Of a stretch of 42,025 bases of DNA, positions 31,633 to 41,856 are shown piece after piece. This DNA is from a virus: IMG/VR virus record IMGVR_UViG_3300017527_000137, positions 1-42,025 of that record; one strand, written 5' to 3'. The notes under the pieces were generated by a model that did not search any database, had not been told where the DNA came from, and was given only the letters and a program-made list of their open reading frames with translations. Position 1 is the first letter of the stretch. Each line of letters begins with the position of its first letter. The translations under genes were made by a program, and so were the position numbers.

Positions 31633-32466
31633 ATGGGCAAGCACATGCTGACAGGCATCAAGGGATGTGTGGGAGAAAGCAGGATCTTTCGGGTGGACCC
31701 CAGGATGATCAGGGTGGTTGCTGGGAGAAACCCCAGGAGCTATTTCGATGATGGGGGCATGGAGGATCTCAAGAAGTCCATCATAAAAAACGGGGTCAAG
31801 GTGCCCATCGTTATCAAGAAAAACAAGGACGGTCACCTTGAGCTGATCGACGGTGAGAGAAGGACCAGGGCCTGCATGGCTGCAATCAAGGAGGGGGCCG
31901 ACATCAAAAGTGTGCCTGCCATGGTGGAGAGGCCCACCATCACTGATGCTGAGATGCTGAGGGCCAGCCTGGTCTGCAATGATGGGATGCCCCTCTCTCC
32001 AGTGGATGAGGGCAGGGCATACAAGCGGCTGATGGACTGGGGCCATGGCCAGGCAGAGATAGGTGACATGGTGGGCCGGTCCAATGTCCACATTATCAAC
32101 AGGCTCAAGCTGGTGGACACTGCCCCTGTGGTGGAGGATGCAGTCAACAAAGGTCAGATCCCCATCTCCAAGGCAGTGGACATCGTGGACAAGTCCAATG
32201 GGGATACAGCAGAGCAGCAAAAACAGCTGGACCTGGCCCCCAAAAAAGGCAAGAGAGCCAAGAGGGTGCTGATCAAGTGGGCCGAAAAAAAGAATGAATA
32301 CCGTATCCAGTATGAGGAGAGGGAGGACAAAAAAGAGCAGCTCCTGGCCCTGGTGAATAATCCCAAAGGCCCCTGGAGAAAATTTGAGAAGCAGCTGTCC
32401 GACCTGGGCTATGACTATGGCAGCATCAAGCTCAGGGTGGAGCCCTACAAGGTGCAGGATGACTAG
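31633..32466 (+). CDS. ParB-like partition/CTPase-fold protein
   Basis: 277 residues with the ParB N-terminal domain: NPRSYFDDGGMEDLKKSIIKNGVKVPIVI and the CTP-binding GERRTRA (74-80). A helix-turn-helix follows (GQAEIGDMVGRSNVHIINRLKL, about 139-160), then a basic C-terminal part. ParB proteins clamp onto DNA beside parS sites. No ParA gene is visible in the window, so the role could be partition with a host ParA, gene control, or DNA organisation in infection. It has a strong AAAGGAGGCGAT site. Confidence 0.88.
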   Translation: MGKHMLTGIKGCVGESRIFRVDPRMIRVVAGRNPRSYFDDGGMEDLKKSIIKNGVKVPIVIKKNKDGHLELIDGERRTRACMAAIKEGADIKSVPAMVERPTITDAEMLRASLVCNDGMPLSPVDEGRAYKRLMDWGHGQAEIGDMVGRSNVHIINRLKLVDTAPVVEDAVNKGQIPISKAVDIVDKSNGDTAEQQKQLDLAPKKGKRAKRVLIKWAEKKNEYRIQYEEREDKKEQLLALVNNPKGPWRKFEKQLSDLGYDYGSIKLRVEPYKVQDD

Positions 32467-32561: not shown

Positions 32562-33434
32562 GTGGACCTTATACCAGTGAGACTCCCAGCAGCTGCCAAG
32601 TGGGATCTGAGGGAGGGGTTTTTCAGTTTCCCCATTGACTTCTATCATGCCCTGCCTGCCATGAGCAAAAGCAGCTGGGGCTCATTTGCTGTCAATGGGG
32701 ATAATTTTCTATTTGAGAGGTCCACTGTGGGCAAGGCCACCTCCTGGTACACCCTGGGCAGTGCTGCCCACTGTGCCCTCCTGGAGCCCTATCTCTTTGC
32801 AGACAACTATGTGGTGGCCCCACCAGAGGTGCTGGCAGCAGACGGCTCCAGGAGGGGCAAGAAGTACACGGCCTGGCAGGCCCAGCAGGCTGACAGGACC
32901 ATCCTGGCCCAGGACCAGATGGACCACATCAGGGGCATGGTCCAGTCTGTGATGACGGATCCTAGGAGAGAGCTGCCCAGGCAGCTGCTCACGGGAGGGG
33001 TGGCAGAGCTTTCTGGGGTGTATAGAGACCCTGACTTTCCTGAGATCTGGCAGAAGATCAGGCCAGACTACCTGCCAGGCAGGTGCCTGGCAGTGGATCT
33101 GAAAACAGGGAAAAAGGGCACTGCAGCCCCTGACAGGTTTGCCAGGGATTGTGTCAACTATGGCTACCACCACAGTGCCTGGCTGATTCTGAGGGGGCTC
33201 ACCCAGCTCACAGGCAAACAGCACACTAGGTACATCTTTGTGGTGGTGGAGACTGAGCCCCCATACCTGTGTGCCACCTATGAGATGAGCTGGGACAAAA
33301 ACCCAAAGTGGCTGATCAGGGCAGAGCAGGATCTCAAACCCCTCTTTGCCCAATTCAATGAATGCCTGCAGGTGGGAAAATTCTGGGGCTACCCTGATGA
33401 CCTGGTGGCCCTGGAGCCCCCCAGGTGGCTGTGA
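32562..33434 (+). CDS. RecE-like 5'-3' exonuclease (PD-(D/E)XK)
   Basis: 290 residues, GTG start after GGGAGGTACTAAG. The pattern matches exodeoxyribonuclease VIII-like phage nucleases: LGSAAHCALLEP (His70), AELSGVY (Glu149), KIRPDYLP (Asp169) and VDLKTG (Asp179-Lys181), then a helix with Tyr/His (YGYHHSAWL). It would resect double-stranded ends so that the annealing protein encoded two genes downstream can pair single strands. The pair is typical of phage recombination modules. Confidence 0.87.
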   Translation: MDLIPVRLPAAAKWDLREGFFSFPIDFYHALPAMSKSSWGSFAVNGDNFLFERSTVGKATSWYTLGSAAHCALLEPYLFADNYVVAPPEVLAADGSRRGKKYTAWQAQQADRTILAQDQMDHIRGMVQSVMTDPRRELPRQLLTGGVAELSGVYRDPDFPEIWQKIRPDYLPGRCLAVDLKTGKKGTAAPDRFARDCVNYGYHHSAWLILRGLTQLTGKQHTRYIFVVVETEPPYLCATYEMSWDKNPKWLIRAEQDLKPLFAQFNECLQVGKFWGYPDDLVALEPPRWL

Positions 33435-36465: not shown

Positions 36466-36515
36466 TTTTTAATTCTGAGGGCCAGCTTATGTTGGCCCTC
36501 ATGGTGAAAAATCAA
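36462..36515 (+). promoter_or_regulatory. two-tier hairpin upstream of the HNH/IS110-like gene
   Basis: Outer arms TTGATTTTT (36462-36470) and AAAAATCAA (36507-36515), and inner arms TGAGGGCCA (36476-36484) and TGGCCCTCA (36493-36501), both perfect 9-bp pairs, enclose 5x5 internal loops and an 8-base apical loop. The ribosome binding site AAAGGAGGTGG begins at the foot of the outer stem. In RNA it could limit access to that site or mark the left edge of a mobile module. Confidence 0.65.
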
Positions 36516-36527
36516 AGGAGGTGGTGA

Positions 36528-37472
36528 ATGGCTAAAGAGGCACTGAAAGAGAAAATGGTGGAGAGGCAAAATGGAGTTGACCCTCTGAGTGGAGAGCCCC
36601 TGGGGGCAGCTCTATCACTTGTGGACACGCACAGGAAAAGGCCCAGGTGTGATGGTGGGGGCTATTCGGATGACAACTACATTGTGACAAACCCTGTGCC
36701 ACACCTGCAGGAGCATGGGGCCTGGGTGGATAGAGACCCTGCCCTGGCTGGTCTCAAGGCTGTGTTTGACTCCAGGCAGGTGATCATCAAGAGAAAGGTG
36801 GCAATGGACAACCAGCTCCTGGCTTTCAAAAGGGGCACTGATGTGATCACCCCAGAGGAAGTGGAGGCCCTGGCAGCAGGATCAACGGCCCTGGCAGCTA
36901 TCAAGGCCAGGAAAGACAAGGAGCTGAGGGGTTTGGTCAAGGCAATGGACAACCCCCATGCCAAGGCCATCATAAGTGTGCCAGCCACAGGGGAGATCAC
37001 TGCTGCAGCCTGCCTGGTCTACCTGGACCCCTACAAGGCAAAGTACCCATCCTCATATGTCAAATATGCAGGCCTGCACTGTGCTGCAAAAGACAGATAC
37101 AGAAAAAATGAGGCTGGTGGGGGCAATAAGAGCCTGAGGTGCATTTTGTGGAATTTTGCCAATTCACAAATCAAGCTGGGAGGCCCCTACAGGGTAGACT
37201 ATGACAGGCAAAAGCTCAGGAGGGCAAACAGCAATAAAATGACCATGACCAACATCACGGGCAAAACAGGAGCCCATGAGAGAAGATGGTCAGAGGTCTC
37301 TGCTGGCCATAGGCATGGGGATGCCCTCAGAAAGGTCATGAAACTGTTTCTGTGCCACCTGTGGCTGGTGCAGAGGGATATTGAGGGCCTGCCCCTGGTG
37401 ACCCCATACCCATTGGACAGGCTGGGGCATAGCACCATCATCTCACCAGAGGACAGGGGGTGGATCTACTGA
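36528..37472 (+). CDS. HNH-like nuclease fused to an IS110-type (Transposase_20-like) domain
   Basis: 314 residues. The N-terminus (VERQNGVDPLSGEPL, LVDTHRKRPRCDGGGYSDDNYIVTNPVPHLQEHG) has the Asp-His...Asn...His order of an HNH/beta-beta-alpha-metal nuclease (D33, H35, N50, H59/H63). A helical region follows. Residues about 145-235 resemble the C-terminal domain of IS110-family transposases (IISVPATGEITAAACLVYLDP, YVKYAGLH, GGGNKSLRCILWNFA). The IS110 N-terminal RuvC-like DEDD domain is absent. The gene is flanked by the two-tier hairpin and, from its stop codon, by the 36-bp periodic array. Perfect AAAGGAGGTGG site. Confidence 0.7.
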   Translation: MAKEALKEKMVERQNGVDPLSGEPLGAALSLVDTHRKRPRCDGGGYSDDNYIVTNPVPHLQEHGAWVDRDPALAGLKAVFDSRQVIIKRKVAMDNQLLAFKRGTDVITPEEVEALAAGSTALAAIKARKDKELRGLVKAMDNPHAKAIISVPATGEITAAACLVYLDPYKAKYPSSYVKYAGLHCAAKDRYRKNEAGGGNKSLRCILWNFANSQIKLGGPYRVDYDRQKLRRANSNKMTMTNITGKTGAHERRWSEVSAGHRHGDALRKVMKLFLCHLWLVQRDIEGLPLVTPYPLDRLGHSTIISPEDRGWIY

Positions 37473-37483
37473 TCAAAACCATT

Positions 37484-37835
37484 AAGAAACCCATGGTTGT
37501 AAAATGAACCAGGCTGACAAAGAAAACCAAGCTGAGAAAATGAGCCATGAGAGATAAGAAGCCCATGGAAATTTAATGAATCACCTGAATGAAGAAACCC
37601 AACCAGTGCAAATGAGCCATATGGATCAAGAAACCCAAATTAGCTGAATGAACCATAAAATATAAGAAGCCCATGGAAAATGAATGAATCATGCAAGGCA
37701 AGCAACCCACTGCCAGTAAATGAACCATTACCTATAAGAAACCCACAGAGGACAAATGAACCATAGCTGCCAAGAAACCCAGAGAAGCTAAATGAACCAC
37801 CAGCACCAAGAAGCCCATCTTGATAGAATGAATTG
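37484..37835 (+). repeat. 36-bp periodic array of alternating 10-bp motifs with 8-bp variable spacers
   Basis: Motif B (AAGAAACCCA) and motif A (AAATGAACCA) alternate, each pair separated by exactly 8 variable bases. B copies start at 37484 and every 36 bases after it (10 copies, last at 37808). A copies start at 37502 and every 36 bases (9 good copies, last at 37790, plus a decayed one at 37826). Motif changes are mostly A/G or C/T at fixed positions; spacers look unrelated. A and B are not complementary, so no hairpins form. The array begins 11 bases after the HNH/IS110-like stop and fills the gap to the next gene. Confidence 0.9.
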
Positions 37836-37847
37836 AGGGCCAATAAC

Positions 37848-38060
37848 ATGCCAAAAATAATGAGGCCACCACCACAAAAGAGTGACAGAACCTGTTTCCA
37901 TGACATCCACCAAAAATGCCGCTTTTTTTGTGACAACCCCCAGGACGTATCCATAGAACCAGGCCCCAGGGACAGCTGGATGTATTGCAGGAAAAAAGAG
38001 AGATACTTTCCCATGACAATCAAGGTGGGATCATTTACTTGTAGCGAATGGACATGGTGA
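37848..38060 (+). CDS. small Cys-rich protein
   Basis: 70 residues from the ATG at 37848, directly after the periodic array, with GAGGG 8 bases upstream. Four spaced cysteines (TCFHDIHQKCRFFCDN, WMYCRKKERYF, FTCSEW) and a basic N-terminus (MPKIMRPPPQKSDR) suggest a zinc-binding, possibly nucleic-acid-binding protein. It stands between the array and the replication initiator gene. No family recognised. Confidence 0.65.
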   Translation: MPKIMRPPPQKSDRTCFHDIHQKCRFFCDNPQDVSIEPGPRDSWMYCRKKERYFPMTIKVGSFTCSEWTW

Positions 38061-38064
38061 GAAA

Positions 38065-39081
38065 ATGGATGCAAAAAAAGGCAAAAACATGAGGCCCCCA
38101 TCATTCCCTTTCTATGTCAAAGACTACCTGGGAGACACTGAGCTGAGGAGGTGCCACAGGTCCACCAGGGGCATCTGGATGGACCTGCTCTGCTTTATGT
38201 GGGAGGCCGATGACCAGGGCAGGCTGGATGACACACCAGAGGGTTTGGCCTCACTGAGTGGGGCTCCTCCAGATGAGATGGTGCTTTTTTTCAGAGATGC
38301 CCTGGCAACGGGGTTTTGTAAAATTGATGAAAAATTTGCTGATTTTTTCGAGAATTCCTACAGAAAAACCCACAGAAAATCCACAGACTGGTCACACCTC
38401 TGCCAGGAGGTCTGGTCACAGCTCTGTCACACCCCTGTCACGGTGGTCAATAGGAGGATGTTTAGAGGGGCTAAACGACGTTTATCACAGAGAGAAAGGC
38501 AAAGGAGGTCCAGGATGAGCAAGCGGGTGGCACCCGTTTGTCACACCTCTGTCACACCCCCTGATAAAAAACCTGTCACACCAGATGTCACGCCCAATGT
38601 CACAGCTTTGTCACACCCAAAAAACACCCCCCCTGCTTTTGCTTCTGCTTCTGCAGTACATGTTAATGATAAATCATTAACCCCAGAGACTGGCCAGGGG
38701 CCAGCTCAGGGGTCTGCTTCTCAAGTGAGATTTGACTTGAGAGCTGACATGGCCAGCCATGTGGATGAGCTGGTGGATCTGGCCAATGAGGCTCAGTCAA
38801 GACCCCATACCTCAGGTAGGCAGTTTCGATCCTTTGCCTGGATTCAAGACATGACCAATAAGGGCAAACACCCTGCAGCTCAAATCTATGCACTCCAGTC
38901 CACTTTAGACAACTGGGGTGATATTGACATACCATGGGCATGGGCCACAAAGGTGGTTAAATCAACAGACGGTAGATTTAAGGGGGATGAATTAAAAAAA
39001 CAGGCACAAAACTTTAAAAAGACTGTCTGGCCAGAAAAGCTCAAAGAGCTGGCAAAAAATGTGGGGAGGGATATATTGTGA
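38065..39081 (+). CDS. phage replication initiator (lambda O/DUF1376-like)
   Basis: 338 residues. The N-terminal winged-helix part (SFPFYVKDYLGDTELRRCHRSTRGIWMDLLCFMWEADDQGRLDD) is typical of phage origin-binding proteins. The middle (about 105-215) is a basic, disordered linker whose codons contain ten TGTCACACC-type iterons and an AT-rich palindrome, as in lambda, where the origin lies inside O. The C-terminal part (FRSFAWIQDMTNKGKHPAAQIYALQSTLDNW) would recruit a helicase loader or host helicase. No phage polymerase or helicase is visible. The start could also be the ATG at 38089. Confidence 0.8.
   Translation: MDAKKGKNMRPPSFPFYVKDYLGDTELRRCHRSTRGIWMDLLCFMWEADDQGRLDDTPEGLASLSGAPPDEMVLFFRDALATGFCKIDEKFADFFENSYRKTHRKSTDWSHLCQEVWSQLCHTPVTVVNRRMFRGAKRRLSQRERQRRSRMSKRVAPVCHTSVTPPDKKPVTPDVTPNVTALSHPKNTPPAFASASAVHVNDKSLTPETGQGPAQGSASQVRFDLRADMASHVDELVDLANEAQSRPHTSGRQFRSFAWIQDMTNKGKHPAAQIYALQSTLDNWGDIDIPWAWATKVVKSTDGRFKGDELKKQAQNFKKTVWPEKLKELAKNVGRDIL
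38390..38681 (+). other. predicted replication origin: phased iterons and AT-rich palindrome
   Basis: TGTCACACC-like 9-mers start at 38390, 38414, 38425, 38436, 38539, 38550, 38574, 38586, 38598 and 38609. Within each cluster the steps are 11, 12 or 24 bases, that is one or two helical turns, so the sites face one side of the DNA. Downstream an inverted repeat, GTTAATGAT (38662-38670) and ATCATTAAC (38673-38681), gives an easily melted element. All lie within the linker region of the initiator gene. Confidence 0.72.
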
Positions 39082-39179
39082 TCATCAGAAAATACGGTGA
39101 GATCGTTTTGACTGAGGATGCCATCATAGTGAGGGACTTCATCTTTGATGGGGAGGGGGAAACCAAGCCATCACCTTGA
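39078..39179 (+). CDS. 33-residue hypothetical peptide
   Basis: GTG start at 39078 in a GTGA overlap with the initiator stop, with GGGGAGGG about 7 bases upstream. The peptide (IIRKYGEIVLTEDAIIVRDFIF, then an acidic GEGE tail) looks like a small beta-hairpin. Codons match the phage. Its reality rests on the good ribosome site and tight overlap only. Confidence 0.4.
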   Translation: MIIRKYGEIVLTEDAIIVRDFIFDGEGETKPSP

Positions 39180-39221
39180 TAAGTCAGCCGACAATAGAAA
39201 AGCAACTGAGTTTGAAAAGGA

Positions 39222-41349: not shown

Positions 41350-41856
41350 GTGACTATGACCATACCAGGTACAAAACCAAAGCCATCAGCAGTCAAGAAG
41401 CTGGGGCCAAAGCCCCACCACAAGCAAAACAAAAAAGAGCCCCAGCCCACCCATAGAGCCCAGAGCCCCCCCTACTATCTGGATGGCAAGGCCAAATATC
41501 TGTTCAAGCAGCTGGTGGAGATCCTGCACACCCAGATGAGGGTGCTGACTGATGCTGACAGGCTCATGCTCACAGCCCTATGTGAGGCCTATGGTGAGTG
41601 GAGGCAAGCCAAGGCAGTGCTGCAGGACAAGAACCTGACCTATGAGACCAAAACAGCCTCTGGGGATGTGATGATCAGGCCCAGGCCTGAGGTGCAGATC
41701 AAAAAGGATGCTGCTGCCAGAATGCTCAAGATCTCTGTGGAGTTTGGCCTCACCCCCAGCTCCAGGACCAGACTGGAGGCCAAAGGGGCTGGTGATGAGG
41801 TGGACCCCTTTGAGGAGTTTCTCAAGGGTGGTGGAAAGCCAAAGGTGGTGAAATGA
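41350..41856 (+). CDS. terS: terminase small subunit, P27 family
   Basis: 168 residues. The basic, Pro-rich N-terminus is followed by the P27-type helical core (LVEILHTQMRVLTDADRLMLTALCEAYGEWRQAKAVL) and the signature RPRPEVQIKKDAAARMLKISVEFGLTPSSRTRL. It recognises phage DNA and recruits the large subunit. The large subunit genes begin across the circular join, one gene later. The start is GTG at 41350 or ATG at 41356. The end overlaps the next frame (AATGA). Confidence 0.92.
   Translation: MTMTIPGTKPKPSAVKKLGPKPHHKQNKKEPQPTHRAQSPPYYLDGKAKYLFKQLVEILHTQMRVLTDADRLMLTALCEAYGEWRQAKAVLQDKNLTYETKTASGDVMIRPRPEVQIKKDAAARMLKISVEFGLTPSSRTRLEAKGAGDEVDPFEEFLKGGGKPKVVK

Follow-up and report, generated by a model that had tools for sequence, protein, structure and literature searches.

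Origins of replication located inside initiator genes are of a kind already established, since SPP1, TP901-1/Tuc2009 and pSK41 all carry origins in this position. The repeats of ori-lambda also lie inside gene O. Four repeats are bound by the O protein and wrapped into the O-some, as described in an excerpt of PMC3985674. For SPP1, an excerpt of PMC6316719 reports that the initiator G38P binds direct repeats in its own gene (oriL), with an AT-rich element. Direct repeats inside the own gene are likewise bound by the Rep protein of Tuc2009/TP901-1 (PMC8965321, in part), and the Rep boxes of the RepA_N plasmid pSK41 are placed centrally inside rep, so that the linker of the protein is encoded by origin DNA (PMC5703833, in part). 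Here, these systems are compared with a virus locus in which short repeats are found inside a putative initiator gene.

The initiator gene and its predicted product

The window, by which we mean the whole stretch of DNA that was analysed, is a virus record of 42,025 bases. Its large terminase gene starts at position 140, its small terminase gene occupies 41350-41856, and the contig appears to be a phage genome, almost complete, that was opened between the terminase genes. A ParB-like gene (31633-32466) and an exonuclease VIII-like gene (32562-33434) are also present. The gene of interest (38065-39081, + strand) is an open reading frame encoding a replisome-organizer-like initiator of 338 amino acids, which belongs to an uncharacterised family as judged from homologs found by protein search and from an AlphaFold2 model. 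The protein gave no Pfam match at E ≤ 1, PF09681 and RepA_N (PF06970) included, and no NCBIfam match at E ≤ 0.1, TIGR01714 included.

The AlphaFold2 model was obtained from 30 sequences and had a mean pLDDT of 73.8. It displays a winged-helix-like N-terminal domain (about residues 14-128, codons 38104-38448, pLDDT mostly above 90) followed by a continuous basic helix, NRRMFRGAKRRLSQRERQRRSRMSK, at residues 130-154 (38452-38526), for which the pLDDT is about 92-94 up to residue 150. The proposed reader motif QRERQRRSR, defined by alignment columns, is located in this helix (38488-38514), with Q at +4 and S at +7. From the end of the helix, near residue 154, to residue 222 the chain is predicted to be disordered. 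The C-terminal helical region (residues 225-333, 38737-39063, + strand as for the other domains) is modelled with lower confidence, is conserved with the homolog L191 and is presumed, by analogy, to recruit helicase or primase. The model of a PF09681 member showed the same order, with a winged helix, a helix at residues 106-132 and a disordered segment.

The PDB chains nearest to the winged-helix domain were 4pql (Z 6.8), 4pt7 and 5kbj (Z 6.4), which are plasmid initiator domains solved with DNA complexes; the scores, between 6.4 and 6.8, are middling and below the decisive level. These three chains are RepA_N proteins.

Another repeated element was observed in the window at 37486-37835, where exact 18-nt units of the form ATGARYCA+N10 alternate with units of the form GAARCCCA+N10. 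This array lies directly 3' of an IS110-like ORF (36528-37472, Transposase_20/phrog_4285), and in the viral contigs L545 and L546 arrays of the same type, with different spacers, adjoin the 3' side of an ORF that is 40% identical. It had no Rfam match and presumably resembles TIGR arrays with their Tas protein.

Iterons and adjacent elements

Ten GTCAC cores, all on the + strand, were found inside the initiator gene. They start at 38391, 38415, 38426, 38437, 38540, 38551, 38575, 38587, 38599 and 38610, with spacings, in order, of 24, 11, 11, (103), 11, 24, 12, 12 and 11 nt. Exact copies of TGTCACACC occur five times and of TGTCACGCC once. Of the 46 GTCAC present across the whole window, nine fall in the densest 300-bp bin, which is the iteron region, and two in the next-densest bin. 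These positions confirm the ten iterons of the preliminary description, their 11-, 12- and 24-nt spacing and their distribution in clusters, and the 11/12-nt steps support the one-turn spacing that it proposed. Cluster A (38391-38441) contains the first four sites and codes for folded residues 109-126, whereas cluster B (38540-38614) contains the six sites from 38540 to 38610 and codes for disordered residues 159-183. The earlier placement of the sites in the codons of a disordered linker is therefore valid for cluster B only, since cluster A codes for a part of the model that is confidently folded. The reading frames of the ten sites are, in order, 2, 2, 1, 0, 1, 0, 0, 0, 0 and 2. All three frames are thus used, in which GTCAC encodes SH/SQ, CH and VT.

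After the iterons, a T-rich tract with a 6-nt period, TGCTTTTGCTTCTGCTTCTGC (38634-38654, + strand), is nearly identical in L191 and is a possible candidate for the unwinding element. The AT-rich palindrome expected behind the iterons is indeed present: GTTAATGATaaATCATTAAC (38662-38681) consists of perfect 9-bp arms around a 2-nt non-palindromic centre. In L191, a different perfect palindrome with 10-bp arms occupies the same relative place after the T-rich tract. Of the 14 array-bearing family members examined, three (the window, L191 and L215) have a palindrome with arms of at least 9, a length reached in 0.9% of the 100-nt segments of the window. In L199, L201, L271 and L273, pyrimidine-rich poly-Ser tracts made of TTC/TCT repeats were observed directly 3' of the iterons, and these are possibly a DNA-level unwinding tract. 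The GC-skew analysis suggested at the outset was carried out and proved uninformative, as the skew was positive almost throughout and gave no origin signal in the window. Rfam gave no match in 36500-39200.

Several null models were applied to the repeats. Raw density gives no signal, since the commonest 5-mer reaches 15 per 240 bp in a Markov shuffle. Similarly, TGTCACRCC with one mismatch was found 19 times genome-wide versus 19.1 expected, without excess. Because such blunt count tests give no signal, the evidence consists of the spacing, the single strand, the three frames and the conservation. Permutation of the gene's own synonymous codons, which is the harshest null, gave p=0.052 for the GTCAC+GTGAC count alone. 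Six GTCAC pairs at 11/12 nt were observed versus a mean of 0.38 in synonymous recodings, a value reached in 0 of 5000 of these. Genes recoded synonymously with the phage codon usage contained on average 3.0 GTCAC and at most 9, so that none of the 5000 sequences reached 10. When the own codons were permuted, the best multi-frame 5-mer was obtained with p=0.005, the floor for 200 shuffles.

Homologs of the window protein

The window protein used as a single query detected no relatives in viral contigs or genome contigs. An alignment used as query yielded 180 homologs from viral contigs, 80 of them retained, and another 3 from genome contigs; three of the 80 loci, under 150 residues, were dropped before counts were made. 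The best homolog, L191, is 30% identical over nearly the whole protein length. It contains eight GTCAC in the same two segments, one immediately preceding the NRRM/NRRV element and the other immediately following the basic stretch, and these sites are read in other frames and encode other peptides. The two-cluster layout was also found in L201, L223, L271 (a Geobacteraceae MAG) and L273 (a Pirellulales MAG).

Because L191 keeps its sites in the same places in different frames, the comparison indicates that the iteron DNA itself is under selection and that the VT, CHT and SH peptides are a by-product. The earlier suggestion that the VTP and CHT repeats of the protein follow from DNA selection is borne out by this result and by the use of three frames. 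Relatives conserving the peptide and losing the DNA repeats, the case that would have spoken for the opposite, were not encountered among those read; the reverse was.

Clear multi-frame GTCAC/GTAAC arrays were present in only 7 of the 80 kept homologs (L191, L201, L223, L199, L204, L215 and L226), most of the others having other repeats or none. One of them, L262, has a one-frame PNRS repeat. In the window-family members L216, L234, L237 and L240, and also in L192, other multi-frame repeats were observed together with other basic stretches; they include AGGTT mostly 12 nt apart and, in one homolog, 11 ATAAC. The AGGTT and ATAAC repeats are other iteron classes. When sister phages were sought through the terminase, the 68 loci obtained, many of which stop short of the replication gene, contained no cluster of at least 4 GTCAC within 200 nt.

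Co-variation of the basic helix with the iterons

When the DNA of viruses was scanned for sets of three TGTCAC spaced 11/12 nt, at least 120 loci were detected. Many of the matches listed were one-frame peptide repeats, and others were replication proteins in which a basic stretch precedes multi-frame TGTCAC; 6 of 10 such proteins among the matches listed match Phage_rep_org_N, and others match PHROG replication-initiation families. A protein search for PF09681 yielded 61 loci (57 distinct), and the linkers of these proteins contain GTCAC in some cases and GTAAC/GTTAC in others. In two PF09681-like initiators, L301 and L312, linker repeats of the GTCCC or GGGAC type were observed, possibly a third iteron class. 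At least 120 loci were also detected by a DNA scan for GTAAC arrays, with at least 25 distinct multi-frame ORFs. These arrays use two frames only, because the third frame holds a TAA stop, and a scan requiring three phases returned no GTAAC array.

Across the homologs, the base in the middle of the site varies with the basic helix, whose positions are numbered here along the motif x0 R/x1 x2 R3 X4 x5 x6 X7 R8. K or Q at +4 accompanies GTCAC, while V or M at +4, or Q with F, Y or H at +7, accompanies GTAAC. For a column-by-column comparison, 138 proteins were clustered at 70% identity into 96 representatives, 50 from the window family (D) and 46 from PF09681 (P). In P, 36 of the 46 representatives could be labelled, 18 as GTAAC and 18 as GTCAC, and 10 were left unlabelled. 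Column +4 split the two sets perfectly (V/M/Q versus K/N/T), and its mutual information (MI), 1.0 bit for the 36 labelled proteins, was the highest in the protein. Column +7 came third, the other leading columns being mostly linker residues encoded by the iterons themselves, and the best winged-helix column reached an MI excess of only 0.33.

On a tree constructed from the winged helix only, the iteron class and the +4 residue each change eight times, and the independent pairs with support, all four of which agree, are too few for significance (p=0.125 by sign test, the lowest value attainable with four). Helix and iterons differ together between L330 (GTCAC) and L331 (GTAAC), which are 66% identical over 175 residues, and between L304 and L308 (56% over 263); L308, with 4 GTCAC/GTGAC versus 2 GTAAC/GTTAC, is just below labelling. 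GC content was rejected as an explanation of the iteron classes, as these overlap in GC.

In D, where the labelled set was small (14 proteins), the column scan did not single out +4. Read directly, this family has K or Q with GTCAC in the window, L191, L193, L201, L223, L271 and L273, and V with GTAAC in L199, L215, L272, L357 and L409; at +4, L226 has A and L204 has Q, in the latter case combined with F at +7. The motif of L272, REHTRKRVSEFR, which was misaligned in the column scan, was identified by eye in the protein sequence. When P and D were pooled and the motifs extracted automatically, V, M, A or I was found at +4 in 10 of 14 GTAAC and in 0 of 24 GTCAC proteins (p=2e-6).

The ORFs obtained by the DNA scans were analysed in the same manner. 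Among the matches listed, R-[VMAI]-x-x-[FYHC]-R precedes the array in 18 of 25 GTAAC ORFs and in none of 15 GTCAC ORFs (Fisher p=6e-6), with V at +4 in all 18 motif-bearing GTAAC ORFs listed; the background is 24 of 2613 other ORF segments. Two of the GTAAC ORFs scored as misses, L357 (TKLRVQRYR) and L409 (TRLRVDKHR), have the motif just beyond the searched segment. L384, L385 and L396 show RV..LR by eye, outside the 18 of 25, and L355 and L415 are the remaining misses. A C-type motif is lacking in 6 of the 15 GTCAC ORFs among the matches listed (in L103, AERQRKSR lies downstream), and at least one of those scored C-type, L089, looks spurious.

The rule was declared beforehand and applied to a hold-out of 16 new distinct PF09681 proteins. 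A readable motif was present in 14, and 13 of these had a clear array class; all 13 predictions were right, including cases of Q at +4 decided by +7. Eight named phages were also inspected. Five have a clear class, and all five fit (phiEf11, 29, Bo-Finn, StB12 and IPP58, the last of which is probably not independent of the hold-out protein L498). PH15 and S-CoN_Ph19 are mixed, and 031MP003 has a V-type motif and no array in the gene.

At the level of sequence, one or two helix residues were thereby shown to predict the middle base of the site, and these data suggest that the 25-residue basic helix encoded between the clusters reads the iterons via an amino-acid-to-base code. The comparison of iterons and binding domain in relatives, recommended in the preliminary description, thus did reveal a co-variation, with the basic helix. 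The N-terminal domain had been expected to bind the sites; the comparative evidence favours instead the basic helix that follows it.

A model for the probable origin and alternative explanations

Sequence comparison establishes the selection of the sites at the DNA level, the bipartite layout and the co-variation of helix and iteron base. The locus is probably a phage replication origin situated inside its own initiator gene, with iterons that would be read by the basic helix. We infer that the protein binds the DNA, that the locus functions as an origin, and that it is opened and loaded with helicase, which may be pictured as follows. The protein is predicted to consist, in order, of the winged helix, the 25-residue basic helix, the disordered linker and a C-terminal recruiting region, and the two clusters sit just before and just after the basic-helix codons, with the T-rich tract and the AT-rich palindrome next. 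The basic helix would be inserted in the major groove, one GTCAC per site, and would read the DNA chiefly by positions +4 and +7 of its motif. Owing to the one-turn spacing of the sites, the protomers would be aligned on one face of the DNA and would form a nucleoprotein body able to open the adjacent T-rich/palindromic DNA, and the C-terminal region would bring in the host helicase. Since about 100 nt separate reader and sites, both could be transferred and altered jointly, as a cassette.

The same origin sites could be read by the winged helix, as in RepA_N, in which case the basic helix would add non-specific affinity only and the co-variation would reflect joint recombination. The nearest folds are those of RepA_N-like initiator domains, the N-terminal winged HTH of pSK41 binds Rep boxes inside rep according to an excerpt of PMC5703833, and helix and iterons are physically near each other. 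However, the sister proteins L330/L331 and L304/L308 share very similar winged helices and differ in helix and iterons. Moreover, hitch-hiking should mark all helix columns equally, whereas +4 and +7 dominate, and identical pairings of residue and base recur in families P and D. We consider recognition by the winged helix unlikely.

It is highly improbable that the sites serve autoregulation or another phage or host protein and not an origin. A ParB-like protein is also encoded by the phage, but several families carry such arrays within their replication initiator genes, the iteron base correlates best with a residue of the initiator itself, and in-gene origins are established in other systems. 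Even less credit can be given to a low-complexity VTP/CHT linker maintained at the protein level, from which the DNA repeats would simply follow. This reading fits many viral matches of the TGTCAC pattern, which are one-frame peptide repeats (VTP or GNVTG, for example), as well as the PNRS repeat of L262; here, it is contradicted by the use of all three frames, by the different frames in orthologs and by the synonymous-codon nulls. Reading of in-gene origin iterons by the basic helix is thus the explanation that we retain.

In a broader perspective, several phage initiator families unrelated in sequence may share one self-contained cassette of about 60-100 codons, made of a zipper-less, bZIP-like basic helix and its iterons, in which a code chiefly of +4 and +7 would set GTCAC versus GTAAC in parallel, by convergence or ancestry, to the bZIP TGAC/TTAC code. 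We advance this generalisation tentatively and rate its chances slightly below even. If it is true, phages could acquire another origin specificity and another compatibility by changing helix and iterons jointly. Should the code hold, origins and their specificity could be deduced from sequence in many uncharacterised phages and prophages, named cases covered including phiEf11 and Staphylococcus phage 29, and the system would be a prokaryotic case in which a basic helix alone recognises DNA in the bZIP manner. Sister pairs that occur in nature and differ in helix and sites would constitute tests of a change in origin specificity without loss of function.

Comparison with known systems

The bZIP basic-region consensus, as in Yap1/Pap1 and Gcn4, is N0-x2-A3-A/Q/V4-x2-S/C/F7-R8. 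By analogy, our hypothesis is that the basic helix of the window protein resembles a zipper-less bZIP basic region. Both are basic helices, and the contrast between TGAC and TTAC half-sites is similar to that between GTGAC and GTTAC. The invariant R at +8 and the N at 0 are also alike, as is Q or V at +4 with an aromatic residue at +7 for TTAC-like sites. Yap1 sites are given as TTACTAA and TGACTAA in PMC3865217. Unlike bZIP proteins, the window protein is devoid of a leucine zipper, its helix ending near residue 154 and being followed by disorder to residue 222. PDB sequence searches with short basic-helix queries returned no bZIP chain at E ≤ 10.

Among replication proteins, Phage_rep_org_N (PF09681/TIGR01714) likewise combines a winged helix, a basic helix and a disordered linker whose codons contain GTCAC or GTAAC iterons, but its HMMs miss the window protein, and half-sites that alternate or form palindromes are frequent among its members whereas the window has only direct repeats in two clusters. 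The pSK41 Rep protein of the RepA_N family shares the in-gene boxes and the origin-encoded linker and, possibly, the fold of its winged-helix N-terminal domain; it differs in being a plasmid protein, in the winged HTH recognition reported for it and in the sequence and number of its boxes (PMC5703833, in part). TP901-1 and Tuc2009, tried as GTCAC positive controls, failed in this role: their rep genes carry other repeats and, unlike the window gene, are without GTCAC/GTAAC arrays.

The parallel with lambda O drawn at the outset holds for the layout only. The initiator matched no lambda O-like PHROG family, the only hit being the marginal phrog_27155 (E=0.11), and lambda has four 19-bp repeats whereas the window has ten short sites. 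For this layout, pSK41 RepA_N and SPP1 are closer precedents than lambda. The helix-iteron code was not found described in the literature searched, in which subscription journals are thinly covered. As far as our searches extend, three features seen here are new among in-gene origins: the family to which the window protein belongs, the arrangement of the sites in two clusters and the helix-iteron code.
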